Shown in pieces: positions 16,278 to 36,900 of a stretch of 64,000 nt of DNA. Under the pieces are notes generated by a model. That model searched no databases, was not told the DNA's origin, and saw nothing but the letters and a program-made list of their open reading frames with translations. Numbering within the stretch: the stretch's first letter is position 1; each line of letters begins with the position of its first letter. The position numbers were made by a program, and so were the translations under genes. This stretch comes from Veillonella criceti (lineage in GTDB: Bacteria > Bacillota > Negativicutes > Veillonellales > Veillonellaceae): assembly GCF_900460315.1 (NCBI RefSeq), contig NZ_UHIO01000001.1:1765501-1829500 (forward strand), in the 5' to 3' direction.

Positions 16278-17888
16278 ATGAACAAAAACCATATCCAACA
16301 CGATAATTATACTAAAATTTCAGGTTTTCGCCAAGTAGTTTTATCTTTGGATTATGGCGTTCGGATTGAACCTAATGAGCCGGTGAGATTACTGGATGCT
16401 GTATTGGAGGAACTAGATTATACAAAGTTACAGCATCTCTATTCTTCAAAAGGAAGAAAATCTTTAGTACCACCATCTATTTTGTTTAAAATCTATGTAT
16501 ATGCCATGACCGAAGGCATTGTATCTGTTCGTAAAATTGCAGAACAATGTACTAAAAATGTTCACTATATGTGGTTATTACAGGGGTATCCAACACCCTC
16601 ACATATGGTATTTCATCGATTTTTCAAGCGACTAACTATTGAAGTATTGCAAGATTTGTTTACACAACTAATTGAAACACTGAGCCAAGTAGATAGTATA
16701 GATTTTTCAGAAGTATTTATTGATGGAACTAAATGGGAAGCGTATGCCAATAAATATAGTTTTGTATGGAAAAAAGCGATTCTAAAACATGCGGCTAAAC
16801 TTCCAGAAAAGTTAAACATACTACAGGATAAAGTGGCTACTGAACTTCAATGTGATAAGGTAACATCATTGACTAATGATGAACTTTTAGTCTATCTAGA
16901 GAAAGAAATTATTAGACAACAAATTCAATTTGTACATGGTTCAGGTAAGCGTAAGCATACATTACAACGCTTATTCGAAGAGTGTGTAGCCATTCGTAAC
17001 AAGCGTATGGAGTATGATGAAGCATTACAAATATTAGGGAGTCGAAATAGTTATTCAAAAACAGATGCTGACGCTACCTTTATGCGATTAAAAGAAGACC
17101 ATATGCTAAATGGTCAATTAAAACCTGCGTATAATGTGCAATTAGCCGTTCATAGTGAATACATTGTGGGTGTTGGTGTATTTCCTAATCCTACAGATAC
17201 AAAGACGTTAATCCCGTTTATGAAACAATTAGAATCTCAGTACAAACAGAAATTTCAATATATAGTAGCGGATGCTGGTTATGACAGTAATGAAAATTTA
17301 TCTTGGTTGTTAGCACATGACTACAAAACATGTATAAAACCAAGTAACTACGAACGAAGTAAGACTAAACGATACCGCGAAGACATAGGTCGTGCAGAAA
17401 ATATGGCGTATGATGAGGTAAGTGATAGTTTTACCTGCGCTAAAGGGCGTAAATTACACTTTCAACGTATTAGAAAAAGTAAAAGTAAAACAGGATTTGT
17501 CTATGAAAGTAGAGTCTACTGTTGCGAAACATGCAATTATTGTGGATTACGTAACCAGTGCCAAAAAGCATATTATGGAGTACAACCTAAACGTAACAAA
17601 ACACTTTATATTTCAACAGATTACCAAGCAATGCTAGTAAAAAACAATGAGGTCTTTAACAGCCCGTTAGGAACACGGCTTCGTGTTAATCGCTCCATTC
17701 AAGTTGAAGGCGTATTCGGTGTACTAAAAGAAGATATGATGTACAAACGCTTTCGACATCGAGGGAAAGATAATGTGGAAAAAGATCTTTTACTAATGGC
17801 GTTTGGTTTCAATCTAATGAAGTTACATAACCGAATACAAAAAGGCCGGTTAGGTCAGCGTTTATTTAAATTAAAAAACGTTGCATAA
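16278..17888 (+). CDS. IS1182-family transposase
   Basis: A 536-residue DDE transposase. The N-terminal DUF772-type domain is at about 30-110. The catalytic residues appear as Asp in FIDGTKWEAY (about 155), Asp in VADAGYDS (about 333) and Glu in VEGVFGVLKEDM (about 483). A Cys cluster (CCETCNYCGLRNQC, about 414-427) is present, as in this family. The frame is intact and full length, so the element may still be active. It is flanked by the terminal repeats described for the IS. Confidence 0.93.
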   Translation: MNKNHIQHDNYTKISGFRQVVLSLDYGVRIEPNEPVRLLDAVLEELDYTKLQHLYSSKGRKSLVPPSILFKIYVYAMTEGIVSVRKIAEQCTKNVHYMWLLQGYPTPSHMVFHRFFKRLTIEVLQDLFTQLIETLSQVDSIDFSEVFIDGTKWEAYANKYSFVWKKAILKHAAKLPEKLNILQDKVATELQCDKVTSLTNDELLVYLEKEIIRQQIQFVHGSGKRKHTLQRLFEECVAIRNKRMEYDEALQILGSRNSYSKTDADATFMRLKEDHMLNGQLKPAYNVQLAVHSEYIVGVGVFPNPTDTKTLIPFMKQLESQYKQKFQYIVADAGYDSNENLSWLLAHDYKTCIKPSNYERSKTKRYREDIGRAENMAYDEVSDSFTCAKGRKLHFQRIRKSKSKTGFVYESRVYCCETCNYCGLRNQCQKAYYGVQPKRNKTLYISTDYQAMLVKNNEVFNSPLGTRLRVNRSIQVEGVFGVLKEDMMYKRFRHRGKDNVEKDLLLMAFGFNLMKLHNRIQKGRLGQRLFKLKNVA

Positions 17889-18065: not shown

Positions 18066-18095
18066 ATGGAGCGGAATTTGGGAACACCGCTTCAT
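18066..18095. other. Putative attL with 9-bp inverted arms
   Basis: ATGGAGCGG (18066-18074) is identical to the 3' end of the tRNA-Gly gene at 26505-26513, in the same orientation. The next bases also partly match (TGGGA in register). It is followed after 12 bases by CCGCTTCAT, forming an inverted pair. The integrase gene ends 49 nt away, the expected place for an attachment site. The identical core is short, so the call is tentative. Confidence 0.4.
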
Positions 18096-18143
18096 TATTG
18101 CTTTTCTAGCTGTATTTATTAGAAAAGGGCAAAAAAAGGGCAA

Positions 18144-19295
18144 CTATAAATTAATAGTATTTAGTTTTTCTATTATATTTTCTTTCATATGTTCCGTCAC
18201 ATGTGAATATATTTCTAATGTAGTCCGAGGGTTATTGTGGCCAACTCTAGCCATGATAGCTTTAAGGGGGACACCTAATTCACTTAGTAAGCTAATATGA
18301 GTATGTCTAAATACATGTGTTGAAATATGCTTGCCGTTGATGTCTAAACGCTTTAATATCTTATTGATTTGTTGCGTTTCGTAAGGGTGGCCATTCTGAT
18401 TGATGAATATATAGCGTTCTTCTTCTGGTGGCTCACCGAGGCTCATATATTGCCATCTATTGGAGCGTATAAAGAACTCTATAATTTCTTTTGACCTATC
18501 ATTAAGAGGAACTTTTCTATAGCTGTATAGGTTTTTTGGTGTTCCTCTAGTTCTAGTGCTGGCGTCATAGCTACCGTTTACATCAATTGCACCATTGAAG
18601 CGGTTGTAATCACACTCACGGAGCGCTAATAACTCCCCTATGCGTAAGCCTGTAAATGTCATAAATTCTATCAGAAGGCCTATACGCTTATGAATGTTGG
18701 CTAACTGTGCAAAACATAGTTTTAGTTCGTTATGATCCAGAAATTTATTACTTGCTTTTCTAATCTCGGTAATAGTCTTTGGCTTTGCTTTTATAGTAAT
18801 GTCTAAAAAGTCCTGTACATTAGCTATATACCCTTTTCGCCTTGCGTATTGCAGGGCGTTTTTTAGTATGCGTAAAAGGCTACATGTGTATTTATAAGTT
18901 GCACCTTGTACGTGATGAAAATTAACCAATACTTCTTCAATATATATGCTTTTTAGGTCGTATAGTGGTATATCCTCAAATAAGGCTTTTAAGCGATTGA
19001 ATGAAGAATCGTAGGTATTTTGAGTTCTAGGGGATACAGTAGGCTTATAATAGTTTATCCATTCTTCTATTACTTGATACAGTGTTACGGTAGGCGTAAT
19101 AGTCTTAACTTCTAGCGCTTCTTTAGCTTCATTTATTTTGCACATAAGCTTTGTATAGGCTCTTTTCTGGTGCTTAGGGCTATTACCTTCTAGGGTAACA
19201 GATACCCGCTTCATAGTGTTTGTTTTAGGGCATTTGTACCGTTCATAGTAACGGTATACCGTGCCTTTTTGTGTTTGTCGTTCCTCTATCCACAT
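18144..19295 (-). CDS. int: Tyrosine integrase of the island
   Basis: A 383-residue phage-type tyrosine recombinase. An N-terminal AP2-like/arm-binding region is at about 1-60, a core-binding SAM-like domain at about 70-165 and the catalytic domain at about 185-375. The catalytic set is visible: Arg218 (TGLRIGE), His327/Arg330 (HVFRHTH), His353 (VGHNN) and Tyr363 (EIYSHV). I place the start at the internal ATG 19295, which has AGAGAGGA about 9 nt upstream, rather than 36 nt earlier. It should integrate the element at the tRNA-Gly 3' end. Confidence 0.93.
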   Translation of the reverse strand: MWIEERQTQKGTVYRYYERYKCPKTNTMKRVSVTLEGNSPKHQKRAYTKLMCKINEAKEALEVKTITPTVTLYQVIEEWINYYKPTVSPRTQNTYDSSFNRLKALFEDIPLYDLKSIYIEEVLVNFHHVQGATYKYTCSLLRILKNALQYARRKGYIANVQDFLDITIKAKPKTITEIRKASNKFLDHNELKLCFAQLANIHKRIGLLIEFMTFTGLRIGELLALRECDYNRFNGAIDVNGSYDASTRTRGTPKNLYSYRKVPLNDRSKEIIEFFIRSNRWQYMSLGEPPEEERYIFINQNGHPYETQQINKILKRLDINGKHISTHVFRHTHISLLSELGVPLKAIMARVGHNNPRTTLEIYSHVTEHMKENIIEKLNTINL

Positions 19296-19336
19296 GTCTA
19301 TTTGTCCTCTCTTGTGGGCGAGAAATAACAAGCCTA

Positions 19337-19834
19337 TTACAGGTTAACATCTGTTAATAGTGATACTCTTGTTAGAAAAATAAAGGGTTCTAAGTTATAG
19401 TTTTGCTTTTTTCGATAAATTTCTTCTATAGATTCTAAAGTTAGCTCTAATAATATATTTTCATGGTCTTCATAAAATGAACGCCAGTTTTCGAAGTCTG
19501 AATCTTTTATATTAACTACAGGAATTTTATTTTCACTTAGTAAAGTCACATAAAGCGACATTTCTAGAAACTCATCATTATCATAATTAACTATAACTTT
19601 AAAAATATTATTATCCAGTGTTATATCAATATTAAATGGGTAGTAATATAAAAAATCTGTAAAATTTAAATTTAGATATTTACATAGATTGTTAAGATAT
19701 TCAACATTAAGTTGTTGAAATTTATTAGATATTAAATTCTGGATAAAAGTTCTTGAACTGTTAGTTTCAGTTGCTACCCTATAGGCTGTTAAATCTCGTT
19801 CATATAATATATTTTTTAGTGTTGATATTATCAT
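19337..19834 (-). CDS. CI-like repressor of the island (HTH N-terminus, unknown C-terminus)
   Basis: A 165-residue protein. Residues 1-65 form a Cro/CI-type helix-turn-helix (LTAYRVATETNSSRTFIQNLIS, then a LCKYLNL helix typical of this fold). Residues 70-165 are an acidic domain that I do not recognise; there is no LexA-like Ser/Lys protease motif. It is transcribed divergently from the Cro-like gene and just before the integrase. It probably keeps the element silent. Absence of a peptidase domain suggests de-repression by a partner protein rather than by RecA, as in phage satellites. Confidence 0.7.
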   Translation of the reverse strand: MIISTLKNILYERDLTAYRVATETNSSRTFIQNLISNKFQQLNVEYLNNLCKYLNLNFTDFLYYYPFNIDITLDNNIFKVIVNYDNDEFLEMSLYVTLLSENKIPVVNIKDSDFENWRSFYEDHENILLELTLESIEEIYRKKQNYNLEPFIFLTRVSLLTDVNL

Positions 19835-19894
19835 TTATTATCACCTCTAAACATATATTAGCAGAATAAGAGCGGTAATTCAATGATATTTTAA

Positions 19895-19979
19895 ATTATA
19901 TTGTAATTTTATAAAACATTGTATTGACAAAATATAACATTGTGATTTAAAATTTAGTTGTAATTTGAAGTTACAATGA
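19895..19979. promoter_or_regulatory. Divergent control region with TTGTAA operator-like repeats
   Basis: Between the repressor and Cro-like genes, a promoter on + is visible as TTGACA (19924-19929), 18 bases, TAAAAT (19948-19953). The inverted repeat TTGTAA-TTTGAAG-TTACAA lies just downstream (19958-19976), and further TTGTAAT and CATTGT half-sites lie at about 19901, 19917 and 19938. This is the expected layout of a lysogeny switch. Confidence 0.6.
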
Positions 19980-20004
19980 AATTTAAAAGGAGGAAAAGAA
20001 ATAT

Positions 20005-20223
20005 ATGCAGAATAGAATTGAAGTAATGGCGAATGTAAAAGTTCAAATACTTAGAGAATTAATGTTAAAGCATGGTTTATCTTCTAAAGCTTTAGCTAAA
20101 GAAGCGGGAGTAGGTATTGTAACAATATATAATTTGTTACGTGGTAAACCATGCGGAATACCTATTGCTAATAAATTGGCTAAGGCTTTAAATGTTCCTG
20201 TAGACGAATTATTCACAGTGTAA
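20005..20223 (+). CDS. Cro-like XRE-family regulator
   Basis: A 72-residue protein that is essentially one XRE helix-turn-helix (LSSKALAKEAGVGIVTIYNLL, then a LAKALNVPVDELF helix). It is the first gene of the rightward operon and is preceded by AGGAGG and the TTGACA promoter. Position opposite the repressor suggests a Cro role. An alternative ATG 21 nt downstream exists, but the ribosome binding site fits 20005. Confidence 0.82.
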   Translation: MQNRIEVMANVKVQILRELMLKHGLSSKALAKEAGVGIVTIYNLLRGKPCGIPIANKLAKALNVPVDELFTV

Positions 20224-20304
20224 ACCTCAACCTATCATATTATCATCTCTCTAACTGTGAATATTCGTTTGTAAGGCGTTTTTATTAAGAAAGGATGTGT
20301 TTGT

Positions 20305-20520
20305 ATGGAGCTAATACAACAAGAGTATGCAAGACCTAAATTCTTCATGATTAAGTACAATGTCAGCCGAACTACATTGTGGCGGTTATTGCAGAATATG
20401 AAAACACGGCCAAAGTTTAAGAATTCATTTAGACGAACTAGCCCAGGTGTTGAATTAATCAATATTGCAGATTTTGACCGCTTCATGGTAATTCGAACCG
20501 CAGAACTAGAAAGGGTGTGA
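20305..20520 (+). CDS. Small DNA-binding protein, possible excisionase or AlpA-like activator
   Basis: A 71-residue basic protein with a helix-turn-helix-like segment (KYNVSRTTLWRLL, about residues 17-29), then an Arg/Lys-rich wing and a C-terminal helix. Size and place between the Cro-like gene and the helicase gene fit Xis/AlpA proteins of satellites and integrative elements. AAGGATG ribosome binding site. The family is not certain. Confidence 0.6.
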   Translation: MELIQQEYARPKFFMIKYNVSRTTLWRLLQNMKTRPKFKNSFRRTSPGVELINIADFDRFMVIRTAELERV

Positions 20521-20526
20521 TGGATC

Positions 20527-20715
20527 ATGTCAGAAAAAGAAAAAGCCGCTCCATGTGCGCCAACACATGAAGCGGTAAAGGAAAGTAAAGCTAGCAGGCT
20601 TTATACTTCCTTTTTATTATATCAATTCCCCGCAGGGATATCAAATGAAAGGGGGATTATATGTTTAGAAATGGGAAATATTTCAACGGTAGAACATTTT
20701 TACATCAACAATTAG
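20527..20715 (+). CDS. Doubtful 62-residue ORF overlapping two hairpins
   Basis: The frame starts 6 nt after the previous stop and overlaps the helicase start by 55 nt in another frame. Its coding sequence contains the 12-bp-arm hairpin at 20546-20575 and a terminator-like hairpin at 20580-20616. No good ribosome binding site is seen, and the composition is unremarkable. I think this stretch is more likely a regulatory leader than a protein gene, but a short leader peptide cannot be ruled out. Confidence 0.25.
   Translation: MSEKEKAAPCAPTHEAVKESKASRLYTSFLLYQFPAGISNERGIICLEMGNISTVEHFYINN
20546..20575. repeat. Hairpin CCGCTCCATGTG/CACATGAAGCGG
   Basis: Twelve-base arms with one mismatch and a 6-base loop. 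Its outer 9-mers CCGCTCCAT and ATGAAGCGG, with 12 bases between them, are the same two 9-mers found at the putative attL (18066-18095) but in swapped order. This may be an excision or integrase-accessory site, or the 5' half of a transcription-control leader. Confidence 0.55.
20580..20616 (+). terminator. Intrinsic terminator or attenuator before the helicase gene
   Basis: GGAAAGTAAAGC pairs with GCTTTATACTTCC (one bulge) and is followed by TTTTTATT. It lies between the Xis-like and helicase genes and would stop or attenuate transcription into the replication gene. Confidence 0.7.
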
Positions 20716-22025
20716 GTGATGACCTTATAAACGAATTAAAAATTTGCCGTATTAGACAAAATAAATATGAAGAAGACGGTAATATATTTAATCGGGATTT
20801 AATGTTTTATAGTGAAGAATATGGTGTTTATAAAACGCTACCGAGTAAGAAATTGAACGCAGAAATACGAAGGCGAATAAAAAATATTTCTAATAACCGT
20901 CAACGAGAAGTGCGACTGTATATTGAAGATATGGCAGAAATTAAGGATATAAAATTTGAAAACTATATAGCAACTAAAAATGTTATTCTTGATGTTTTTA
21001 ATCGAGCAACATTCAGGTATTCGCCTGATATTATATGCACTCGGTATATACCTACTGAATATAATCGCTTACAGAGTGAATGCTCTATTCTTGATAAGTT
21101 TATGAATACAATTACTTGCGGTAATAAAGATATAGAAAACCTGCTTTACGAATTTATAGGGTATTGCTTATCGCCAACAATATTTATACATCAATTTTTT
21201 ATTATTATTGGTGAGGGTAGCAATGGAAAAAGTACATTTTTTAAGTTGCTAACGGAATTATTAGGGCATTGGAATGTAGGCAATACGCCACTAAATAAAT
21301 ACGGTGGGCGCTTTGAGTTAGCCGGTATGGAATATATAGCTGTTAATATAGGCGATGACATAAGCGATAAGGCGCTATTAGAAACAGATAACCTAAAGAA
21401 ATTAGTTAGTGGTGACCCTGTCAAGGTAGAGCAGAAAGGAAAACAAGGATATGTTATATATCCAACATGTAAGCATATATTTAGTGCGAACACTATGCCT
21501 AGGGTTGTAGATACAAGCGGGGGCATGAAAAGGCGTTTTGTGGCTATTCCATTCAATGCAGATTTTAAAAAGAATGGGGATCCTGAAATTTTAAACAAGA
21601 TAATTGAAGCGGGTGGTCTTACCGTACTTATGAATAGAGCGCTTGAGGGGTTACAGCGATTACGTTCAGCTTATCAATTCACAATGTGCGATGAAGTCTT
21701 ACTCACTACTGAAGAGCATTTGAAAGAAATGAACCCCTTAGCAATATTTAATGACATGTGGCTTAATAATGAGTTTGAACCCTATGAAAGCCCTACTGCT
21801 AAAGAATTTGTTTGTGTACCGATTAATGAAGTGGTGGCTAATCAATATTACAAGTTTTATAAAGACTTTTGTAAGCAATATGGATTTGAGGCGTTAGGAA
21901 TTACTCGATTCAATCGGGAGATGAAACGGCTAGGATATGAAAAAACTAGGTGTTGGAATGGAAATTTACGGGGTAAATATGTATATGCTCTAATGCTCAA
22001 AGAATGCGCTAATTCATCTAAATAA
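20661..22025 (+). CDS. D5/P4-type replication helicase (phage/plasmid primase family C-terminal part)
   Basis: A 454-residue protein with a D5_N-like segment (about 60-170) and a superfamily 3 helicase core: Walker A GEGSNGKST at 184-192, a Walker B-like VNIGDDIS at about 228-235, and sensor-type CKHIFSANTMP at about 271-281. The C-terminal winged-helix-like region is at about 370-450. It lacks the N-terminal primase domain of P4 alpha, so priming must come from elsewhere. The start has GGGGG seven nt upstream. An origin-like repeat cluster follows immediately. Confidence 0.85.
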   Translation: MFRNGKYFNGRTFLHQQLGDDLINELKICRIRQNKYEEDGNIFNRDLMFYSEEYGVYKTLPSKKLNAEIRRRIKNISNNRQREVRLYIEDMAEIKDIKFENYIATKNVILDVFNRATFRYSPDIICTRYIPTEYNRLQSECSILDKFMNTITCGNKDIENLLYEFIGYCLSPTIFIHQFFIIIGEGSNGKSTFFKLLTELLGHWNVGNTPLNKYGGRFELAGMEYIAVNIGDDISDKALLETDNLKKLVSGDPVKVEQKGKQGYVIYPTCKHIFSANTMPRVVDTSGGMKRRFVAIPFNADFKKNGDPEILNKIIEAGGLTVLMNRALEGLQRLRSAYQFTMCDEVLLTTEEHLKEMNPLAIFNDMWLNNEFEPYESPTAKEFVCVPINEVVANQYYKFYKDFCKQYGFEALGITRFNREMKRLGYEKTRCWNGNLRGKYVYALMLKECANSSK

Positions 22026-22027
22026 AA

Positions 22028-22284
22028 TGGTGCATTGAGAATGCAGTATTTATAAGGGTTTATCGGTGAATGCTCTAAATGCTCTAAATATTTTTACATT
22101 ATAAGTATATATAAGTATATAAAGTATATAAAGTATATAAAGTATATAAAGTATATAAAGTATATAATGAGTTAAAAAAATATGGTGCATTTGTTGCAAT
22201 GACTACAAAGCCAGTAAATACAAGGGTTTGTATGCACTTTTTTTATAAATTAAATTGGTGCATGCAATAAATTATGTGGTGCAT
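22028..22284. other. Putative replication origin: TGGTGCAT iterons around an AT-rich 9-bp repeat
   Basis: Four direct copies of TGGTGCAT (22028, 22183, 22256, 22277) and one inverted GTATGCAC (22231-22238) surround a run of seven AAGTATATA units (22103-22166). This lies directly after the helicase gene. P4-type helicases bind GGTG-containing iterons near an AT-rich unwinding region, so the layout fits an origin. No gene occupies 22026-22315. Confidence 0.6.
22103..22166. repeat. Seven copies of the 9-mer AAGTATATA
   Basis: Units start at 22103, 22113, 22122, 22131, 22140, 22149 and 22158, with the last six in exact tandem. The stretch is almost pure A/T and is a candidate DNA-unwinding element. 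Copy number may vary by slippage. Confidence 0.9.
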
Positions 22285-22315
22285 ACAGTAGAACTGAAAG
22301 ATAAGGAGATAAGAT

Positions 22316-22552
22316 ATGTTTAATAAATTAGTTTGGGATGAACAAGAATTTAAAAAAGCGCATATGTGCTATAAGAAGATAGTAAAAATTCAAGATGAAG
22401 TCTTTACTCAGGAAGTGTTAGATAATATAATCAATGTTTTAGTTCTGTTAGATGCATTTAGCCTTGAGAATATCGAAGATGAGGAGCTTAAATTAATGGC
22501 GAGAGTGAAAACTTTATATTTACTAGGCTATATTAACGGTAAGGCAGTGTGA
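22316..22552 (+). CDS. Hypothetical island protein
   Basis: A 78-residue acidic, helical protein with no recognised domain. AAGGAG lies upstream, and the next gene follows after 6 nt, so the two form an operon. Codon use is AT-rich, like the rest of the island. No membrane segment. Confidence 0.65.
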   Translation: MFNKLVWDEQEFKKAHMCYKKIVKIQDEVFTQEVLDNIINVLVLLDAFSLENIEDEELKLMARVKTLYLLGYINGKAV

Positions 22553-22558
22553 TGGCGT

Positions 22559-22813
22559 ATGAATAAAAAGACATCGATTCAAGACAGTACTTTTATAAAA
22601 GCTGTAGAAGTTATGACAGACGCAGTACATAGAAATATTAAAACAGTATTTTTTACGGTGAATACAATGGACGCATTAAATGAAATTTGTGCTAACTTTG
22701 GTTTTTATGACTATAATATCACTCCGTTTACAATGGAATACAACGGAAAGACATTAGCTTGTTACGCTACTAAAGCAGAATATAACCCTAAGAAAGCAAG
22801 TATTAAAGGATAG
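22559..22813 (+). CDS. Hypothetical island protein
   Basis: An 84-residue protein following the previous gene by 6 nt. Predicted mixed alpha/beta with a hydrophobic middle (VFFTVNTMDALNEICANFGF), but no clear transmembrane helix. The family is not recognised. Confidence 0.6.
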   Translation: MNKKTSIQDSTFIKAVEVMTDAVHRNIKTVFFTVNTMDALNEICANFGFYDYNITPFTMEYNGKTLACYATKAEYNPKKASIKG

Positions 22814-22844
22814 AATTTACGTTAAAAAAGTGAGGGTATTTATT

Positions 22845-23069
22845 ATGGAAAATATAAACTTAGTTGAAAATATAACTTGTGAAAATGTAAATGAACTTGA
22901 CGATTTTGATGTTGTTATAGAAATTATGAGAAGTTGCGTTGAAAGCGCTGAAACAGGGCGTAAATGGAATGATGTATTAGCTGAAATGTGTATACGTTGT
23001 TATAGAGAGGGTAAGCGTGCAGGTTTTGACATGAGAAAAGCGTATGATGAAGTAGTAGCGACATTGTAG
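22845..23069 (+). CDS. Hypothetical acidic island protein
   Basis: A 74-residue protein, acidic at the N-terminus and basic at the C-terminus, probably helical. I place the start at ATG 22845 because GAGGG lies upstream, rather than at the GTG at 22830, which overlaps that site. No domain recognised. Confidence 0.6.
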   Translation: MENINLVENITCENVNELDDFDVVIEIMRSCVESAETGRKWNDVLAEMCIRCYREGKRAGFDMRKAYDEVVATL

Positions 23070-23103
23070 CAGGGCCTAATAAAGAACAGCTAGTAGGCCA
23101 ATT

Positions 23104-23145
23104 TAGGGGGCGTTGTGGTTATATCCATAGCGCCTTTACTCTTAT
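23104..23145 (+). terminator. Possible terminator-like hairpin after the small-gene operon
   Basis: An imperfect stem, GGGGCG-TTGTGG with TCCAT-AGCGCCTTT, lies about 40 nt after the last small gene and ends in a weak T-run. It overlaps a 31-codon frame described separately. Confidence 0.35.
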
Positions 23146-23210
23146 TCAAGGTAGGTTCTTCTGGAGCGTATGGAGCAATTACGGCAACTGTGATCGCAAG
23201 CATTAGCTAG
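23115..23210 (+). CDS. Possible 31-residue hydrophobic peptide
   Basis: A GTG-started frame preceded by AGGGGG (4 nt spacing) encodes a small hydrophobic peptide with a PLLLLF core and a Gly/Ala-rich C-terminal half (GAYGAITATVIASIS). It could be a membrane peptide of the lysis or toxin type, or chance. Only the ribosome binding site and composition support it. Confidence 0.25.
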   Translation: MVISIAPLLLFKVGSSGAYGAITATVIASIS

Positions 23211-23236
23211 ATGTAAAAAATAAACTTGCCTTGCTT

Positions 23237-23401
23237 TCGCTCAAAATTAAGCAAAAGTCTAAAAGTCGTGTTTTGCTACTTTTTAATGTGGAATTGTTGA
23301 CAAAAGTTGACATTGAACAGGCTCAAAAAAGAGCAAGTTCAGATGTTGATAAAAGTTGACATTCGCTCAAAATTGAGCAAAAGTTTAAAAGTCGTGTTTT
23401 G
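23237..23401. repeat. Pair of 39-bp direct repeats in the island
   Basis: TCGCTCAAAATT(A/G)AGCAAAAGT(C/T)TAAAAGTCGTGTTTTG occurs at 23237-23275 and 23363-23401, with two differences. Between them AAAAGTTGACATT occurs twice (about 23294 and 23351). The stretch has no good gene. It could be a protein-binding array or a decayed duplicated gene. Confidence 0.75.
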
Positions 23402-23526
23402 TTATATCATTTCAACATGGCCAACATATAAAACTTGAGAAAACTTGAGGTTGAAATGTTAATGTTTGTTAAGGTCAAAACCTTATAAAACCTGATATTT
23501 ATTTTATGTATTAAGGGGGTAACGTT

Positions 23527-23649
23527 TTGCGACACCCTAAAAAAGAGTATAGCGAGATTTGCGAGGCCCTAAAAAAGAGGTATCCTTACATTTCTGACTC
23601 CCTAAAAAAAGAGTATTCGGAGATTTCGGAGGCCCTAAAAAGGAGATGA
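23527..23649 (+). CDS. Forty-residue protein of three 11-residue repeats
   Basis: A TTG start lies 7 nt after AAGGGGG and opens a 40-codon frame. After MRHP it reads as three 11-residue units, KKEYSEICEAL, KKRYPYISDSL and KKEYSEISEAL, then KRR. The DNA shows the matching 33-bp period. An 11-residue repeat with this pattern of Leu, Ile and Tyr suggests one long amphipathic helix or coiled coil. The stop lies 4 nt before the next ATG, whose ribosome binding site is inside this gene, so the two are coupled. Family unknown to me. Confidence 0.55.
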   Translation: MRHPKKEYSEICEALKKRYPYISDSLKKEYSEISEALKRR

Positions 23650-23653
23650 TACA

Positions 23654-23824
23654 ATGATAAAAGCTAAAATTAGTTATAATCCTAAAGAAGATAAATGCAT
23701 AGTAGGTGAAGTGTTGAAACAGTTTTCTGTTGATAAATATCGATTGAAATTTATTTCTAGGCCTGTTAATGGAGAACTTAGGACAATCGCATATATTAAC
23801 CCTAAAATTAAGGGTATAAAGTAG
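23654..23824 (+). CDS. Small hypothetical protein, 56 residues
   Basis: An ATG with AGGAGATG upstream opens a 57-codon frame encoding a basic protein (MIKAKISYNPKEDKCIV at the start, ending INPKIKGIK). It follows the 11-residue-repeat gene by 4 nt. Predicted small beta-rich fold; family not recognised. Confidence 0.6.
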   Translation: MIKAKISYNPKEDKCIVGEVLKQFSVDKYRLKFISRPVNGELRTIAYINPKIKGIK

Positions 23825-23855
23825 CGATAAATGCAGTAATGGCGGTGCTTTTTGC

Positions 23856-23885
23856 TTGTTTATATGCCTTGAAATATGGTATAAT
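23856..23885 (+). promoter_or_regulatory. Promoter upstream of the structured RNA and capsid genes
   Basis: TTGTTT (23856-23861), 18 bases, TATAAT (23880-23885), preceded by TGG as an extended -10. Initiation is expected near 23892. Confidence 0.6.
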
Positions 23886-23891
23886 AAAGAT

Positions 23892-24062
23892 AGTTAAATA
23901 AGCAAAGTACCGCTATTGTAATTGACGAATTATAATGGTAAGGCAAATAAATAAAACTGAACTGGGTTCAATGCGCAAGGGCTTAGGAATGTTGAATAGC
24001 CGTGGGAATAATAAATCTCTTCTGGGTTAGAGGAGTGCTGTTATTTCCTCGGCTTTTTATTT
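23892..24062 (+). ncRNA. Candidate structured RNA ending in a terminator
   Basis: Downstream of a good promoter and with no ORF, the stretch holds TGAAC-TGG-GTTCA, an inner CTCT/AGAG stem and an outer stem AGCCGTGGGAATAA / TTATTTCCTCGGCT that closes onto TTTTTATTTT. That is a multi-stem RNA of about 170 nt with an intrinsic terminator, just before the capsid genes. It may be a free small RNA or a leader regulating late genes. It matches no family that I can name. Confidence 0.5.
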
Positions 24063-24170
24063 TGTCCGTGGGACTTATTTAGCTAGGATACTAAGCATTA
24101 CCTTCTTTTAATGTTGAGTACAACTCTGTTAAAGTGGTTTTGTTTACCTTCGGCAACCACAAACAATATT

Positions 24171-24209
24171 CCCCGCCATAGCTGTAATTAAATTACAGCT
24201 ATGGCGGGG
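24171..24209. repeat. 39-bp near-perfect palindrome before the scaffold gene
   Basis: CCCCGCCATAGCTGTAATT and its exact reverse complement are separated by one base. There is no T-run. The position is 45 nt before the scaffold gene. It could be an operator, an RNA stability element, or part of a packaging (cos/pac) site. A second hairpin, GTGGTT...AACCAC, lies at about 24134-24159. Confidence 0.8.
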
Positions 24210-24253
24210 TGTGTTGTATAACCTTACTTTAGGGATAAAAAGGAGAATGAATT

Positions 24254-24787
24254 ATGAGTAATAACGCAAACCAAAGCGGTAATAATGGGAATGAAAAGCT
24301 GTTTACACAGCAAGAAGTAGATAACATTGTAAAAGATCGTCTTGAACGTGAACGCAAGCGCTACAGTGCAGACGCTGACGCTATGGGCGAATTAAATAGA
24401 CAGGTTGCAAGCCTACAGGCTGAATTATCACAACTAAAAGAAGATAAGGCAGCACAGGCGGAGCAACTAAAGACTGAAAAAATTAAAAATGCAATTATTG
24501 ATGAATTAACCAAAGGTAACGCAATAAATACAGCTAGTTTAGTACATGTATTTAGTGGTGGCGCAAATATTAGTGATGATGGAACTATTATGGTAACAGG
24601 AGAAGATGGGAATGCTGTTTCTGTAAAAGACGGTGTAAAAGCGTGGTTGAAAGAAAATTTATGGGCTGTTAAAAATACATCTCAGCCGGGCGCTGGTAGT
24701 GCCATGGACCCTGGGCGTGCTTATGATAGTGATGCTGTAATGAGTGATTCATTGCGTGAAGCCTTTGGACTAGTTAGAAAGGATTGA
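24254..24787 (+). CDS. Phage capsid scaffolding protein
   Basis: A 177-residue acidic protein with the typical scaffold layout: a disordered Asn/Gly N-terminus, the FTQQEVDNIVKDRLERERKR motif seen in DUF4355-type scaffolds (about 17-36), a coiled coil (about 45-80), and a C-terminal segment ending SLREAFGL that would bind the capsid protein. It lies 7 nt before the major capsid gene with good ribosome binding sites. It guides capsid assembly and sets size. Confidence 0.82.
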   Translation: MSNNANQSGNNGNEKLFTQQEVDNIVKDRLERERKRYSADADAMGELNRQVASLQAELSQLKEDKAAQAEQLKTEKIKNAIIDELTKGNAINTASLVHVFSGGANISDDGTIMVTGEDGNAVSVKDGVKAWLKENLWAVKNTSQPGAGSAMDPGRAYDSDAVMSDSLREAFGLVRKD

Positions 24788-24794
24788 ATATTAT

Positions 24795-25652
24795 ATGGCA
24801 ACGATTGAATTAGCTTCTAAATATGCTTCATTAGTAGATGAGAAATTCACAACGGAAAGTAAAAGCGACTTGTTAACTAATCAAGATTATGATTGGATAG
24901 GTGTTAAGACGGTGCGAATATATAAAGTTAGCACTTCTGAAATGAATGATTATGATCGTGATTTAGAGGGCAAATACGGCGGTAAATCATATTATGGCGA
25001 GGTTAAAACGCTAGACGCAACCACGCAAGAAATGACATTAAGCCGTGACCGTTCATTTACATTTGTAATTGATAGATTAGATGATGAGGAAACAGGAGAT
25101 GCATTAGGTGCAGCGAAAGCTTTAGAACGTCAATTGCGAGAGGTTGCAATTCCTGAATTTGATGAGTACACACTAAATAAGATTTGTACTGAAGCAGGGA
25201 TTAAACCTAAGGCAAAAGCATTGACTGTTGATAATATTGCTACAGAGATTTTAACGGCTACTAATGCGTTAGACAATAAAGAAGTACCAGAAGCAGGGCG
25301 TATTCTTGTTGTAACACCTGATACATACTTCTTAATGAAACAATCTAAAGATATTGTTATGAATACAGAAGTTGGTAGCGATATGCGTATTAAAGGGGTA
25401 ATCAGTAGCTTAGACGGTATGCAAGTATTGAAAGTACCTGCTTCCCGTTTACCAAAGAATTTCGGCTTTATGGTGGTTCACCCTGTAGCCACAGTATGCC
25501 CTCGTAAGCTAAACGATTATAAAATTCATGATAACCCGCCAGGGATTAACGGCTTCTTAGTTGAGGGGCGTTTATGTTATGATGCCTTTATTTTGGATAA
25601 TAAAAAAGACGCTATTTATTATCAACCTATGACCGTTAGCACAAGTGCATAA
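24795..25652 (+). CDS. Phage major capsid protein
   Basis: A 285-residue protein resembling HK97-fold major capsid proteins of siphophages of Firmicutes: N-terminal ELASKYASLVDEKF arm, an E-loop/spine region (RSFTFVIDRLDDEETG), and the A-domain-like segment GRILVVTPDTYFLMKQS. No protease gene or long delta domain is present, consistent with a separate scaffold. Its presence without portal or terminase genes is the unusual feature of this element. Confidence 0.85.
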   Translation: MATIELASKYASLVDEKFTTESKSDLLTNQDYDWIGVKTVRIYKVSTSEMNDYDRDLEGKYGGKSYYGEVKTLDATTQEMTLSRDRSFTFVIDRLDDEETGDALGAAKALERQLREVAIPEFDEYTLNKICTEAGIKPKAKALTVDNIATEILTATNALDNKEVPEAGRILVVTPDTYFLMKQSKDIVMNTEVGSDMRIKGVISSLDGMQVLKVPASRLPKNFGFMVVHPVATVCPRKLNDYKIHDNPPGINGFLVEGRLCYDAFILDNKKDAIYYQPMTVSTSA

Positions 25653-25678
25653 TTCAGATAGAGAGATGATATAGAAAT

Positions 25679-25719
25679 AGCCACAATGGGGAATGATACG
25701 CCTGTTGTGGCTGTTTTAT
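25679..25719 (+). terminator. Terminator after the capsid gene
   Basis: AGCCACAA pairs with TTGTGGCT (18-base loop), followed by GTTTTATT, 27 nt after the capsid stop. Confidence 0.7.
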
Positions 25720-25822
25720 TAGAAAAGTAATTCTCTTATTTGCGCTGTAAGTATAGATAGTTTAGATATAAATACCTTAGGAGATTTTTATTTGTTAGTA
25801 CGGATTAAATGAGGTGGACGGA

Positions 25823-26272
25823 ATGGGATATTATGAAAAGACATTAGAACTTATGCGATTAAATGATAAAATTCATGTGCTAAAAGCTAAACTATATAGC
25901 CTTGATGGGGTAACGGTTAGTTATATATCCAATACACCGAGAGGTAAAGGCCATAAAGGGGATAAAATAGGGCATATCGTGGCTAATAGAGAAGAATTAA
26001 TAGCTGAAATAGCAGCCTTAGAGAAGCAGAGCGAGCCGTATATTAAAGATGTGCGAAAGGCGTTGCGGGCGTGTTGTAATTATGATTTATCGAATAGTAT
26101 AGAATCTCATAGACTTGTTAGTAATGTAATCGTATATAATTACACAGTTGAAGAAGTAAGCGAATTAAGTGGTAAGAAAATTTCACAAATCCAAAGGAAC
26201 ATAAGAACTTATCTTAGTCGCATGAAAGAGCGAGAGGAAAAAGGTACATTAGATATTAAATCATACTATTAA
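25823..26272 (+). CDS. ArpU/RinA-like late regulator
   Basis: A 149-residue protein with an N-terminal coiled coil (about 1-75) and a C-terminal sigma-70 region 4-like helix-turn-helix (VEEVSELSGKKISQIQRNI, about 115-133). This is the plan of the DUF1492/ArpU/RinA regulators that switch on late phage genes. The start is ATG 25823, which has GAGGTGG upstream. Such genes usually precede terminase small subunits; here the element ends instead at the tRNA. Confidence 0.7.
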   Translation: MGYYEKTLELMRLNDKIHVLKAKLYSLDGVTVSYISNTPRGKGHKGDKIGHIVANREELIAEIAALEKQSEPYIKDVRKALRACCNYDLSNSIESHRLVSNVIVYNYTVEEVSELSGKKISQIQRNIRTYLSRMKEREEKGTLDIKSYY

Positions 26273-26335
26273 AAATAGGCGAGCGCATGGCCCGCCTATG
26301 AGAGGTGATAATATGATGTTTCCTATATTTAATTG

Positions 26336-26374
26336 TAGGGGGCAAACGCGTTTTAGGGGGCAAGCCTAGGGGGC
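26336..26374. repeat. Three TAGGGGGC boxes near the right end of the island
   Basis: TAGGGGGC occurs at 26336, 26354 and 26367, and a fourth copy lies at 23104. G5 runs are rare in this AT-rich island. An 18-codon frame begins just upstream (ATG 26312, ribosome binding site AGAGGTG) and covers two of the boxes. They could mark a packaging-recognition site. No gene is otherwise visible in 26273-26505. Confidence 0.5.
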
Positions 26375-26403
26375 GCTTTTAAGGGCAAACATATAATAAA
26401 AAT

Positions 26404-26496
26404 GAAAAAAGAAGAAATACTTCAATCTTGTATAAACCTAGTAACTACCTGAATAGTTGACCTTTTGAAACAAGATGAAATCTTTCTTCTTAGTGT
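26404..26496 (-). terminator. Probable terminator of the tRNA-Gly transcript
   Basis: Read on the - strand, AAGAAGAAAGATTTCATCTTG pairs imperfectly with CAAGATTGAAGTATTTCTTC across about 40 bases and is followed by TTTTTTC. It lies directly downstream of the tRNA 3' end. The same inverted arms could also be integrase or Xis arm sites. Confidence 0.45.
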
Positions 26497-26505
26497 TTTT
26501 AATAA

Positions 26506-26579
26506 TGGAGCGGCCGATGGGAGTCGAACCCACCTCTACGGCTTGGGAAGCCGTCGTTCTACCGATGAACTACGGCCGC
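26506..26579 (-). tRNA. tRNA-Gly (anticodon CCC)
   Basis: On the - strand a full cloverleaf can be drawn: acceptor GCGGCCG/CGGCCGC, D arm with GGTAGAAC, anticodon stem ACGGC/GCCGT with loop TTCCCAA (anticodon CCC), T arm TGGG-TTCGACT-CCCA, discriminator T and encoded CCA. It reads GGG codons. Its 3' end is the right boundary of the island, so it serves as the attachment site (attR) and remains intact. Confidence 0.93.
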
Positions 26580-30310: not shown

Positions 30311-30953
30311 TATTTTGGGAAGTTGGTAGGAGCGTAAATTACTTTCTTTTTATGAAAATATTATATGAAAAGATTAATATTACATTTAAATTTACTGTGT
30401 GTTAAATTTTCTGTTTTTAGATAAGATTTTTTGCTATCAAAATGAAAAATTAATGGATTAAAAATGAAGTTTGTTAACAGTATGCATTAAGAGTAATGTA
30501 AAAATTGATGGATTAGGTTGTGAAAAATTATGGAATTTAATATTTTGAAATTTATGATTAGAAAAACAAATAAAGTAGATTATAAGTAAACTCAATAATT
30601 CCCTTTGTTTTAATGGGTTATTTGCGGTTTTTGGTAAAATTAAATAAAACGATAAATATAACTATAGTAGTATTGATTTTTTATTGTGATAGATGTAGAA
30701 TAAAAATTGATAATAAGAAATTCATGAAATCCTTATATTTTTGATAGGTGAAAATCAAAGTTTATTTTATAGATATATGAGATTGAATTAGGGATTGATG
30801 AGTAAATTTTCTTATATCTGAATATTTTTACTGTTAATAGTTTTGTTATTCATTGGTTTTTATGTAGTTTTATCTTAGGGGGCTTTGAAACAGTATAGTT
30901 ATAACTTATGTATTGTATCTAATGAGTGGGATAATGGGATAGGAGTAGGTATA
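30311..30953 (+). other. AT-rich non-coding upstream region of the giant adhesin gene
   Basis: About 640 bases with very high A/T content and no credible ORF. A promoter must lie here, but no single -35/-10 pair stands out. The length is unusual for this compact genome and may carry regulatory sites for adhesin expression. Confidence 0.6.
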
Positions 30954-33900
30954 ATGAATAAGATTTACAAAGTTATTTGGAGTAAAACAAAGGGCTGCTA
31001 TGTAGTAGCATCTGAATTTGCAAAACGAGAAGGGAAAGCAGCAAGTTCTCATATGAGTGCATTACGTGCTACATTTGCTACTTTTTGTGTTGCAAGTTTA
31101 TTAACTGGTAGTGTGATGGCGGCTTCGACGGTCATGACACGGGATGATAATTTTAATTTACTCATAGGTGCTAATACGACGGCTGCGTCGGAAAATTCTG
31201 TTGTTGTAGGCGATAATATTACAGTTGGTGAAAAGGCGGATAACTCTGTCGTTCTTGGTGGTTCTTATACAGAAGATGGAAAACGGACAGATACTAATGT
31301 TACAGCCTTGAATTCTGTAGTTATTGGCTTAGGGAATACTGTAAAGGGCTATGCTACCGATATAAAATATAGCGATAAAAAAGATACGAACATATTTAAT
31401 ACTGTCATTGGTACGGGCAATGTTATTGAAGGGGAAAATGTTACTAATAAGGGACAAGTATTTAAAAATGTAGCGATTGGCTATAAGAATAGAGTCGCCA
31501 CTCAAAACGCTGTAGCGCTTGGTAATGAAGCAGAAGTAACGGGTATTTCGTCTGTGGCGATTGGTGATAAAGCAAGAGCTATATCGGGAAATACCTTGGC
31601 TATTGGGCAAGGTGCTACTGCTCAAGATCAACGCTCTATAGCATTAGGGGTTGGGGCTACCACGGAAAAGAGTGATAGTATTGCTATTGCTGCTACAACT
31701 AAGAGCACGTATAGTATTGCTATGGGCTCGTCTGCTAATACGGGTGTGAATGCAAATAACTCGATTGCTATTGGGAAACAGGCTACGGTTAGTGATAATC
31801 TTCCTGATTCTATCGTAATGGGCCGTGAGGCTAAAGCTTCTGGTAATGGGTATCAATCAGTAGCAATCGGCACGCAAGCCAATGTGACGGTTGCGGGTGG
31901 TGTGGCTCTAGGTGATCGATCTGTTGCTTCTGTAACGACTGGTCAAAAAGGATATGATCCAGCTACTAATAAGGCCAGTGTTAATACAGATAAAACTTGG
32001 AAGAGTACATACAGTGCTGTTTCTATTGGTAATGATAGTGCTACTCGACAAATTGTGAATGTAGCAGCCGGCTCTAATGATACGGATGCGGTGAATGTGG
32101 CACAGTTAAAAGCAGTGACTTTGCAGACTACAGCTGATACTAAAACAGCAGGTAGCAATGGGCAAGGAAAAGTAAATCTAGCCACTGAAAAACTAAATAT
32201 TGCTGGTGGTGCTACTGGTACTGCGACAACTGTTAAAAATATTAAAACGTCTTTAACTAGCGATCCTACAAAAATCCAAATCGATTTAGTGAAGGATGTG
32301 AATTTAGGTGCTAATGGTTCTCTAACGACAGGGAACACAGTAGTTAATAATAGCGGGGTAAAAGTAACGAATGGTAGCCAATCGAGCTCTTTGACTGCTA
32401 GTGGTTTAACGGTTACTAATGGTCCGACGATTTCTACGTCTGGTATTGCTATGGGTAATGATCAGATTACACAGTTAGCAAGTGGTTCTGATGGTGAGTC
32501 TAATGGTAAACCGACTTATAATACCCCAACCAATGCAGCGAATATTGGTGACGTAAAGAATATCACGGATGCCGCTACTACAGTGGTTATTAATAACTTG
32601 ACCGCTAAGGGTATGGATTTTGCCGGTAATACGGGTAAAGTGCATCGTGATTTAGGTCAAACTCTTAATGTAGTAGGTGGTCAAAGTGATACAACTAAGC
32701 TATCTGAAGGGGCTAATATTGGCGTAGTTGCTGCAACTACAGGTAATGATGCGAGCTTAACAATTAAACTAGCTAAAGATTTGACTGGTTTAAATACAGT
32801 GACAGCTAGTTCGGCTGTTATAGGTAACCAGAGCGGTACAGTAATTAATTCAGATGGTAGTAAGACGCAAGCACCTAAGGGAAGTTATGTAACTGGTTTA
32901 AGTAATACGTCTTGGGATGTAAAAAATCCTTCCTATGTGTCTGGTCGAGCAGCGACAGAAGATCAATTAAAAGCGGTGTCAGAGGCTCTTAGCCAACAAG
33001 TTGTGGATACAGATGATTATCGTTTAATTCAAAATCCAGCTGCTGGTTCCGATGGGGCATATAAAGTAGCCAATAATAAAGTGACGTTGAAGGTGAAAAA
33101 TGTTAATGACCCTAAGGCTACCGTTGAAGATGTTGTTATTGATGATGTAGCGTCTGCTACTGATTTAGATAAGTTAACGGATCGTGCTGTTAAATATGAT
33201 TTAACGGGCGATACAGTGAATAAAAACCAAGTAACGCTAGAAGGTACTAATGGTACACAAATTAAGAATTTAGCAAGTGGCTCTGATGGCGTTAAGGATG
33301 GAAAACCAACTTATAATACTGATACCAATGCAGCCAATATTGGTGATGTGAAGCATTTTGCTAATGAAGCCGAAGAAAAAGGCTTAAACTTCTCCGCTGA
33401 TTCTGGTGCGGCTGTACATCGTGATCTTGGTGAAACCTTAGCGATTGCTGGTGATGGTCAAAATATTGCAACAACAGCTGATGCTAAAACTGGTAAAGTT
33501 ACTATCTCCTTAACTAACGATATTTCCGTAGGCCAACCAGGCGTACCAGGTAAAGATGGAAAGCCTGGCACACCAGGTAAAGACGGTTCTATTGGTGCTA
33601 AAGGAGCCGATGGCTCTGCTGTCGTACTCAACGGTAAAGATGGTTCTATCGGTTTAACAGGCCCTGCCGGTAAAGATGGTGAACCAGGTACATCTATTAC
33701 AATTAAAGGTGAAAAAGGTCAGCCAGGTTTAAATGGCACTCCAGGTAAAGATGGCATAACTCGAATTGTTTATCAAGAAGGGGAAACAAAGCATGAAGTG
33801 GCAACCCTTGACGACGGCATGGTATACACCGGTGATACGGGTCGCGCAGCGGTTAAGTTGAATAAAACAGTAAATATTACTGGTGGTCAAACTGATGCAA

Positions 33901-36900
33901 CAAAATTAGCAGCAGGTCCTAACATTGGTGTTGTAGCGGCTCAAAATAGTGAAAATGGTAAATTAACCATTCAATTAGCTAAAGACATCAATCTTGGTAA
34001 CGATGGTTCTGTAACAACTGGTAATACTGTAATTAATAATGATGGTTTAACAATCAATAACGGTCCATCTGTAACTAATACAGGCATCAATGCTGGAGAT
34101 GAACAAATTACAGATGTAGCGAGTGGTGCTACTAGTAAGGACAAAGATAATAATCCAATATATGACAATGATACGAATGCAGCCAATATTGGTGATGTGA
34201 AGCATTTTGCTAATGAAGCCGAAGAAAAAGGCTTAAACTTCTCCGCTGATTCTGGTGCGGTTGTACATCGTGACCTTGGTGAAACTTTAGCCATTGCTGG
34301 CGATGCACAAAACATTACGACTACAACAGACCCTACTAATGGTAAAGTTACCATCTCCTTAACTAACGATATTTCCGTAGGTCAACCAGGCGTACCAGGT
34401 AAAGATGGTCAGCCAGGTACACCAGGCAAAGACGGTTCTATTGGAGCTAAAGGGGCAGATGGTTCGGCTGTTGTACTCAATGGTAAAGACGGTTCCATCG
34501 GGTTAACCGGTCCTGCTGGTAAAGATGGTGAACCAGGTAAAACTATCACTATTAAAGGGATTGATGGCCAACCAGGTGTTGATGGTAAAGATGGTATTAC
34601 TCGTATCGTAGTTGATGAGCATGAAGTAGCAACGCTCGAAGACGGCATGGTATACACTGGCGATACAGGTCGCGCAGCCGTTAAATTGAATAAGGTTGTC
34701 AATGTTGCTGGTGGTGAAAAAGAAAGCGCTAGATTATCTTCTGGTAAAAATATTGGCGTAGTAGCTGATCAAGATGGTGAAAATGGTAAGTTAACTATTA
34801 AATTGGCTAAGAATTTAACTGATTTAACTTCCGTACAAATAGGTAATACAACAATTAATACAGATGGCTTAACGATTACAAATGGTCCATCGGTAACAAA
34901 TACAGGTATTGCTGCTGGTGATAAACAAATTACAGATGTAGCGAGTGGTGCTACTGGTAAGGACAAAGCTAATAACCCAATATATGATAACGATACCAAT
35001 GCAGCTAATATTGGTGATGTGAAGCATTTTGCTACTGAAGCCGAAGAAAAAGGCTTAAACTTCTCCGCTGATTCTGGTGAAGTTGTACATCGTGATCTTG
35101 GACAAACTTTAGCGATTGCTGGCGATACACAAAACATTACGACTACAACAGATCCTACTTCTGGCAAAATTATAGTTTCCTTAACCAACGATATTTCCGT
35201 AGGGCAACCAGGCGTACCAGGTAAAGATGGTCAGCCGGGTATCCCAGGCAAAGATGGTTCTATTGGTGCTAAAGGGGCAGATGGTTCTGCTGTCGTACTC
35301 AATGGTAAAGATGGTTCTATCGGTTTAACAGGTCCTGCTGGTAAAGATGGCCAACCAGGTAAAACTATTACCATTAAAGGGATTGATGGCCAACCAGGTG
35401 TTGATGGTAAAGATGGTATTACTCGTATCGTAGTTGATGAGCATGAAGTGGCAACGCTCGAAGACGGCATGGTATATGCTGGTGACCAAGGCAGTGCTGA
35501 TGTTAAGTTAAATAAGAAAGTCACTGTATCTGGTGGTGTAACTAAGAGTGATGCTTTATCTACTGCTGACAATATTGGTGTGGTAGCAACAAAAGATGAA
35601 AAGGGGAATGCGGTTCTTGATGTACGATTAGCCAAAGATATTACAGGTCTTAACTCTGTGACTGCTGGTGGCGTAACTGTTGGTACACAATCGACTACGA
35701 CTGAAGGTGGCGTAACAAAAGACGGTAATTTCGTTACTGGATTGACGAATACAACTTGGAATACAGACGATCCAGATATTGTATCTGGTCGTGGTGCTAC
35801 GGAAGACCAATTGAAAGTGGTGTCTGGTGATTTAACAGAAAAAATTAATGCTAAATCAGATTATCGTTTAATCCAAAATCCAGCTGCTGATTCCAATGGG
35901 GCCTATAAAGTAGCCGATAACAAAGTGACGTTGAAGGTGAAAAATGTTAATGACCCTAATGCTACCGCTGAAGATGTTGTGATTGATGATGTAGCGTCTG
36001 CAGATGATTTAGATAAGCTAACGGATCGTGCTGTTAAATATGATTTGACTGGCGATACTGTGAATAAAAATCAAGTAACGCTAGAAGGTACTAGTGGTAC
36101 ACAAATCAAGAATTTAGCAAGTGGCTCTGATGGTATTAAGGATGGGAAACTAACCTATAATACGGATACCAATGCAGCCAATATTGGTGATGTGAAGCAT
36201 TTTGCGAATGAAGCAGAACAAAAAGGCTTAAATTTCTCTGCTGATTCTGGTGAAGTTGTACATCGTGATCTTGGACAAACTTTAGCGATTGCTGGCGATA
36301 CACAAAACATTACGACTACAACAGATCCTACTTCTGGTAAAATTATAGTTTCCTTAACTAACGATATTTCCGTAGGTCAACCAGGCACACCAGGTAAAGA
36401 TGGTTCTATTGGAGCTAAAGGGGCAGATGGTTCGGCTGTTGTACTCAATGGTAAAGACGGTTCCATCGGGTTAACCGGTCCTGCTGGTAAAGATGGTGAA
36501 CCAGGTAAAACTATCACTATTAAAGGGATTGATGGTAAACCAGGTGTTGATGGCAAAGATGGTATTACTCGTATCGTAGTTGATGAGCATGAAGTGGCAA
36601 CGCTTGAAGACGGCATGGTATACACTGGTGATACGGGTCGTGCAGCTGTTAAATTGAATAAGGTTGTCAATGTTGCTGGCGGTGAAAAAGAAAGCGCTAA
36701 ATTATCTACTGGTAAAAATATTGGCGTAGTAGCTGATCAAGATGGTGAAAATGGTAAGTTAACTATTAAATTGGCTAAGAATTTAACTGATTTAACTTCC
36801 GTACAAATAGGTAATACAACAATTAATACAGATGGCTTAACGATTACAAATGGTCCATCGGTAACAAATACAGGTATTGCTGCTGGTGATAAACAAATTA

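Follow-up and report, generated by a model that had tools for sequence, protein, structure and literature searches.

A probable PICI-type replication origin, with a conserved box in each iteron arm, in an excising phage-satellite-like island of Veillonella criceti

Background

Capsid-forming PICI carry a capsid set of their own that includes a portal and a terminase. In P4, alpha has a primase fused to it and depends on a separate crr. Work on SaPI includes papers by Ubeda from 2007 and 2012, and for SaPIbov1 the binding of Rep to the iterons alone was reportedly insufficient for melting. In the account of PICI given in the available part of PMC6092414, the origin is located directly 3' of rep and two iteron sets flank an AT-rich region.

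We analyzed a 64,000-nucleotide stretch of the Veillonella criceti chromosome (the window). Judged from its sequence, positions 21985-22284 are, with a probability of about 0.85, the replication origin of an integrated 8.4-kb phage-satellite-like island of the PICI type. The original prediction of an origin recognized by the adjacent helicase is very probably correct, the layout matching that of PICI origins as described in the same part of PMC6092414 and that of other satellites.

The island and its excised circle

The island spans 18066-26504 (8,439 bp) and is bounded by 9-bp cores, the right one of which overlaps the 3' end of a tRNA-Gly gene. Its features were as follows.

18066..18074, no strand: attL core ATGGAGCGG, common to the left end, the right end and the junction of contig C3
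18144..19331, minus strand: tyrosine integrase (Pfam PF00589, 4.4e-24; phrog_1, 2.2e-67)
19337..19834, minus strand: CI-like repressor (PF13443, 2.6e-9)
20005..20223, plus strand: Cro-like regulator, divergent from the CI-like repressor (PF01381, 4e-10)
20305..20520, plus strand: excisionase-like HTH protein (phrog_904, 1.5e-5, a weak match; no Pfam match)
20661..22025, plus strand: D5/DUF5906 helicase (Rep), 454 aa, without a primase domain, proposed iteron-binding initiator (PF19263, 7.3e-21)
24254..24787, plus strand: head scaffolding protein (phrog_206, 6.3e-7; Pfam Phage_scaffold below the cut-off)
24795..25652, plus strand: major head protein (phrog_422, 2.6e-65)
26505..26513, no strand: attR core ATGGAGCGG, at the tRNA 3' end
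26506..26579, minus strand: tRNA-Gly(ccc), the integration site (Rfam RF00005)

The integrase and repressor genes run leftward, and the Cro-like, excisionase-like and helicase genes rightward, followed by the origin, small genes, and the genes for the scaffold and the major head protein. The small genes (22316-23069) had no Pfam match, and two of the three also had no PHROG match. The phage head proteins nearest to those of the island, at about 48% identity, were from Streptococcus phages. Comparison of the whole island DNA with plasmids and phages gave no match, and an Rfam scan of the island placed only the tRNA above the gathering score, the remainder being sub-threshold.

Several other structures were observed in and around the island. 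At 23526-23645 a unit of about 33 nt (CCCTAAAAAAGAG) occurs in four imperfect copies, which are in frame and encode an 11-residue repeat. A strong palindrome (24159-24221) precedes the scaffold gene, and the sub-threshold matches to Rfam microRNA models reflect only its hairpin. Immediately to the left of the island is a transposase-like ORF of 536 aa (16278-17888) with inverted repeats at its end, and elsewhere in the window a trimeric-adhesin-like ORF (30885-46226) encodes 5,113 aa with many internal repeats.

A separate contig of the same assembly, C3 (8,413 bp), is the circular island, with the cores fused into attP. It matched the 8,439-bp island at 99.67% identity, with 2 mismatches and 26 gap positions; across its ends the sequence continues as it does at window 22315/22316, with the attP core located at position 4185 of L004. 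Global alignment with the chromosomal copy gave 22 difference events, 20 of which were in or next to single-base runs under a lenient rule and several of which came from one messy stretch near 18300-18330. These differences disrupt the integrase and helicase frames and were taken to be sequencing errors. That the same assembly holds the island as a circle of 8.4 kb, closed at attP and distinct from the chromosome, shows that it excises, and the 9-bp core at tRNA-Gly and the circular C3 correspond to the attachment-site and excision feature of PICI.

Iterons and the least stable DNA after the helicase gene

The helicase gene is followed by a gap of 290 bp (22026-22315), in and beside which the following elements were identified.

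21985..22086, no strand: left iteron arm, TRGNGCAT at 21985(-), 22004(-), 22028(+), 22070(-), 22079(-)
22103..22166, plus strand: seven AAGTATATA units, proposed melting site; 22106 is the first base of the 60 bp that are least stable in the island
22183..22284, no strand: right iteron arm, TGGTGCAT at 22183, 22256, 22277 (+), GTATGCAC at 22230

The four TGGTGCAT octamers (22028, 22183, 22256 and 22277) and the inverted GTATGCAC (22230-22237) that had been described for this gap were all found there. The seven AAGTATATA units between 22103 and 22166, with a first spacing of 10 and then of 9, were likewise present, but the description of this 64-bp tandem run as A/T-only was wrong because each unit holds one G (G at 8 of 67 bases). 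The least stable 60 bp of the island are within the gap and ranked 6 of 63,940 in the window.

The exact octamer proved too narrow as the recognition unit, and the fuller iteron TRGNGCAT fits more copies. Of its 12 copies on both strands of the island, eight are in 21985-22284, two of them inside the 3' end of the helicase gene, and these eight form two arms, one on either side of the DNA that is least stable in the island (four minus and one plus on the left, three plus on the right). None of 5,000 shuffles of 21960-22315 reached eight copies (maximum 2), and in 2,000 dinucleotide shuffles of the same stretch no 8-mer with three or more G/C reached four exact copies (maximum 3). At least four copies of some such 8-mer were present in 25 of 2,404 257-base segments of the window, all at 23401-23561 and 49561-52101, in a scan that left out the adhesin gene and whose 20-base step missed the helicase gap itself. 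The genome-wide count suggested with the original prediction indicated that the octamer is not rare, with 103 copies (58 + 45) versus 58 (26 + 32) for the reversed pattern; four were in the gap, four in the circular copy of the island and 95 elsewhere in about 2.2 Mb.

We propose that the integrase and excisionase would release the island as a circle at tRNA-Gly, and that the helicase, whose gene lies immediately upstream, probably acts as initiator by binding TRGNGCAT in the two arms. It would then melt the AAGTATATA block between the arms and load there as a helicase, with primers coming from the host or a helper. The repeats, their arrangement in two arms, the low-stability block, the recurrence of this layout in relatives and known satellites, and the excised circle were observed; protein binding, melting, replication from 21985-22284, helper dependence and the source of primers are inferred.

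Relatives of the island and the same layout in other elements

A close helicase was present in three of seven genomes of the genus, that of the island itself and two others in which identity was 89% and 65%, and a distant 27% match in two genomes; across 61 genomes of the order, the same three carried it at E <= 1e-60. Neither the window protein nor its three-row alignment identified relatives in viral contigs, and genome contigs yielded one.

In the 89% relative, Veillonella sp. R32, eight of the nine TRGNGCAT copies of its island are in the gap, in the same layout, and the low stability of the gap is kept but the 9-bp period is not. The major head protein had no match in R32 (G006). The 65% relative keeps the head protein at 83% identity. 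Its gap has no TRGNGCAT and shows weak repeats resembling TGTAGCA, with two exact copies and eight that have at most one mismatch; the top exact 8-mer occurs twice, as it did in 831 of 2,000 shuffles, and the AT minimum ranked 23 of 8,241. The original prediction had named a relative with the helicase but without these repeats as evidence against an origin, and the 65% relative is such a case to the letter, the exact octamer not being conserved. It does not refute the origin because origins of this type usually have iterons that vary from lineage to lineage.

After D5 and VapE helicase genes, 76 of 99 dereplicated regions had a 7-mer present at least four times, versus 1 of 99 in the helicase body. 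The PICI arrangement, an AT-rich region flanked by two iteron sets directly behind the gene, was seen in the staphylococcal PICI PI-Sepi-HH2, in Javan61, in Javan120 and in most of the other elements compared; bIL310 was a poor fit. The layout is not exclusive to satellites, as the phages Javan385, Javan512, 858 and LincolnB, which have related primase-helicases, also have repeats after the helicase.

A conserved box in each arm

Each arm also holds an 18-bp box, with the consensus CAGTANTAYCAAGGGTTT after an A-tract (A-tract, two bases, CAGTANTAYCAAGGGTTT), which, like the degenerate opposite-strand iterons, had been missed by the original prediction. The two copies flank the AT block at a distance of 168 bp from each other.

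22044..22061, plus strand: left conserved box CAGTATTTATAAGGGTTT, 14 of 17
22212..22229, plus strand: right conserved box CAGTAAATACAAGGGTTT, 14 of 17

We scored the box in 460 nt around and after the helicase stop in 99 dereplicated origins of two helicase families (43 D5, 41 VapE and others from the 20 first origins, from some of which the consensus had been read). It reached at least 14 of 17 in 40 of these and did not in 59, and the reversed motif did so in 0 of 99. Twenty column permutations gave 0 to 2, the helicase body 0 of 99 and the region 700-1160 nt downstream 0 of 95. In dereplicated loci fetched by helicase protein, a fairer sample than loci chosen by the box, it reached this score in 19 of 43 for D5 and 12 of 41 for VapE, the VapE query proteins having come from loci found with the box and at least six viral contigs being common to the box-selected and protein-selected sets; the reversed motif and another stretch of the same loci each gave 0 of 43 and 0 of 41. 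The 40 box-positive origins had 28 different top 7-mers among those with at least four copies, some of these being similar iterons read in another register. The box was between the outer iterons in 35 of the 40, was not in two, and three were not assessable.

R32 had a score of 14 in one arm and 13 in the other. The 65% relative had 14 in one arm and below 13 in the other, with a further 14 outside the island at L014 17795. Elsewhere in the 64 kb, one further site scored 14 of 17 (43042), as did one for the reversed motif (5692).

Exact CAGTANTAYCAAGGGTTT was found in at least 120 stretches of viral contigs and the reversed pattern in 3. Among the viral matches listed there were 95 distinct exact sites, 40 of which had some 7-mer in four or more copies within 250 bp and 52 of which had neither helicase type in origin position nor iterons; some exact sites were in open frames. 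Four of the 95 listed sites were 0 to 15 nt from a tRNA, though there were only 8 tRNAs in the 884,505 bases, and all three of these that were scanned for domains adjoin an integrase (L111, L131, L143). One exact box was beside a Rep_1 gene (L056). The neighbors had no informative domain at L078, L100 and L062 and an unrelated domain at L058, L089 and L135. In a group of viral contigs (L046, L059, L069, L080) the exact box recurs in comparable surroundings that lack iterons; it follows an ORF of 277 aa, for which L046 gave a weak Toprim match. The VapE origins, the integrase and tRNA sites and the Rep_1 gene rule out the box being part of D5 origins only.

In 199 genomes of the phylum there were 8 exact sites in 6 genomes (reversed, 0); none of their 3-kb loci had either helicase, and one had iterons. 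At one site in a phylum genome (L339, 1501) the box was among 11 TCCGCCA copies, with neither helicase in the locus. Copies were few in near relatives, with 10 within one mismatch in 28 genomes of the family (reversed, 0), and none under that pattern in the genome of the island itself. The arms of the relatives that score below 14, the further sites in the 64 kb and outside the island of the 65% relative, the 59 origins that lack the box, the viral sites with neither helicase nor iterons and the sites in phylum genomes all count against the box.

What the box may be

IHF/HU sites have the consensus WATCAANNNNTTR with an upstream A-tract, and IHF acts at origins and at attachment sites. We tentatively interpret the box as a site for a host DNA-bending protein, a reading favored because the box, like IHF in other bacteria, is found at origins and at attachment sites. 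The box consensus resembles an IHF site in its A-tract, followed by 8 nt, TAYCAA, GGGT, TT and then mostly A or G; in 49 box sites from these origins A made up 73% at -7 and between 79 and 93% across -5 to -3, and in 69% the box was followed by A or G. It differs from an IHF site in that GGGT and CAGTA are conserved beyond the IHF site and that TACCAA variants occur. The collection consensus fits the WATCAANNNNTTR core, and neither window copy fits the TATCAA core. In all seven Veillonella genomes the HU family is represented by a single gene. The single HU-family gene, the departure of the window copies from the IHF core and the 52 of 95 listed viral sites that remain unexplained argue against a bending protein.

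Stated more generally, the box could perhaps be a docking site, long and specific in sequence, at which mobile elements that are unrelated to one another engage a DNA-bending protein of their Bacillota-type hosts. It is conceivable, at a similar level of tentativeness, that such a site serves both origins (D5 or VapE, with any iterons) and integrase attachment sites, as a Gram-positive counterpart of the IHF site.

An unlikelier possibility is that the helicase itself binds the box through a conserved part, the iterons being read by its variable C-terminal domain. The position of the box between the outer iterons in most box-positive origins would suit this, but the box accompanies two helicase families, and exact copies adjoin integrases at tRNA genes as well as a Rep_1 gene. 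It is improbable that the box is a single-strand or rolling-circle signal. Its complement holds CTTGATATTA, which resembles the nick sites of phiX174 and pC194, and the copy in L056 would fit such a signal, but TAC replaces TAT in about a quarter of the copies and most sites are found with SF3-type helicases or integrases rather than with Rep_1.

If the docking-site reading is correct, the box would be the missing element in satellite origins that turns iteron binding into melting. As a host-factor site, it would offer a handle on a host protein needed by these origins, and it could bear on why Rep-iteron binding alone reportedly fails to melt the SaPIbov1 origin. A literature search for the letters of the box gave no phage or origin paper by title and abstract start, and one joining origin, IHF, satellite, iterons, helicase and phage found none. 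The box may be new, its novelty being unproven, as these searches gave no mention of it and the key SaPI origin papers are outside them.

The helicase and other readings of the repeats

A search of the PDB with the helicase profile gave 7ola/7om0 as the sole sequence match (7ola_A, 1.2e-37, profile positions 43-444). We take 7ola, named DNA primase by the search tool, to be SaPI5 Rep. The helicase parts of the two proteins are alike at that score, whereas 7ola has 797 aa, with about 370 residues extra at the N-terminus. An AlphaFold model of the island helicase had a mean pLDDT of 34 and was set aside. As originally proposed, the primase domain is missing: no such domain or homolog was found in the helicase or in the ten other island proteins scanned (11 distinct), and the primase homolog that in PICI is with or fused to rep is thus not seen among them.

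The original prediction had used P4 as its model. SaPI/PICI is the better one because 7ola is the closest solved protein and because P4 alpha is primase-fused and needs crr. A P4-type replicon, in which a P4-alpha-like helicase acts on GGTG-type iterons, is very unlikely. The two helicases belong to the same broad SF3 superfamily and the four octamers have a GGTGCA core, but the PDB profile match was 7ola and not a P4 protein, the 454-aa helicase has no primase part of the kind fused in alpha, and neither R32 nor the 65% relative retains the GGTG core. Least credible is that the repeats are not an origin but operators through which one of the two island HTH regulators controls the genes after 22316: they do precede a gene start and the island does encode two HTH proteins, but the repeats form two arms around the least stable DNA and run into the helicase gene, and the layout recurs behind the helicase genes of elements whose regulators are different.

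Comparison with known systems

The probable origin resembles that of Streptococcus satellite phages (Javan61, Javan260 and others), in which iterons and the least stable DNA occupy a gap, about 210-365 nt long, behind the helicase gene. Javan61 has the same left-end gene order as the island, and several Streptococcus satellites have the box. These satellites differ in having other iteron sequences and mostly an extra gene before the helicase gene, with a primase-type annotation in MissG2.

In comparison with PICI/SaPI, the island has no primase gene among its scanned proteins and has its own scaffold and major head protein. As no portal or terminase was found among those proteins, its head genes fall short of the capsid set of capsid-forming PICI. 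The box is not mentioned in the PICI origin account in the available part of PMC6092414, and a literature search with one phrase (Veillonella and phage satellite) found no paper. Among the shared features, the probable origin is positioned directly after rep, with iteron sets flanking an AT-rich block, as in that part of PMC6092414; the integrase is at the left end, the regulators are divergent, and to their right an excisionase-like gene, albeit identified by a weak match, precedes the replication gene. The plan of the origin is the one already known for PICI/SaPI, of which the island adds another example, and it would extend the PICI-type origin to Veillonella in an element seen both integrated and circular.
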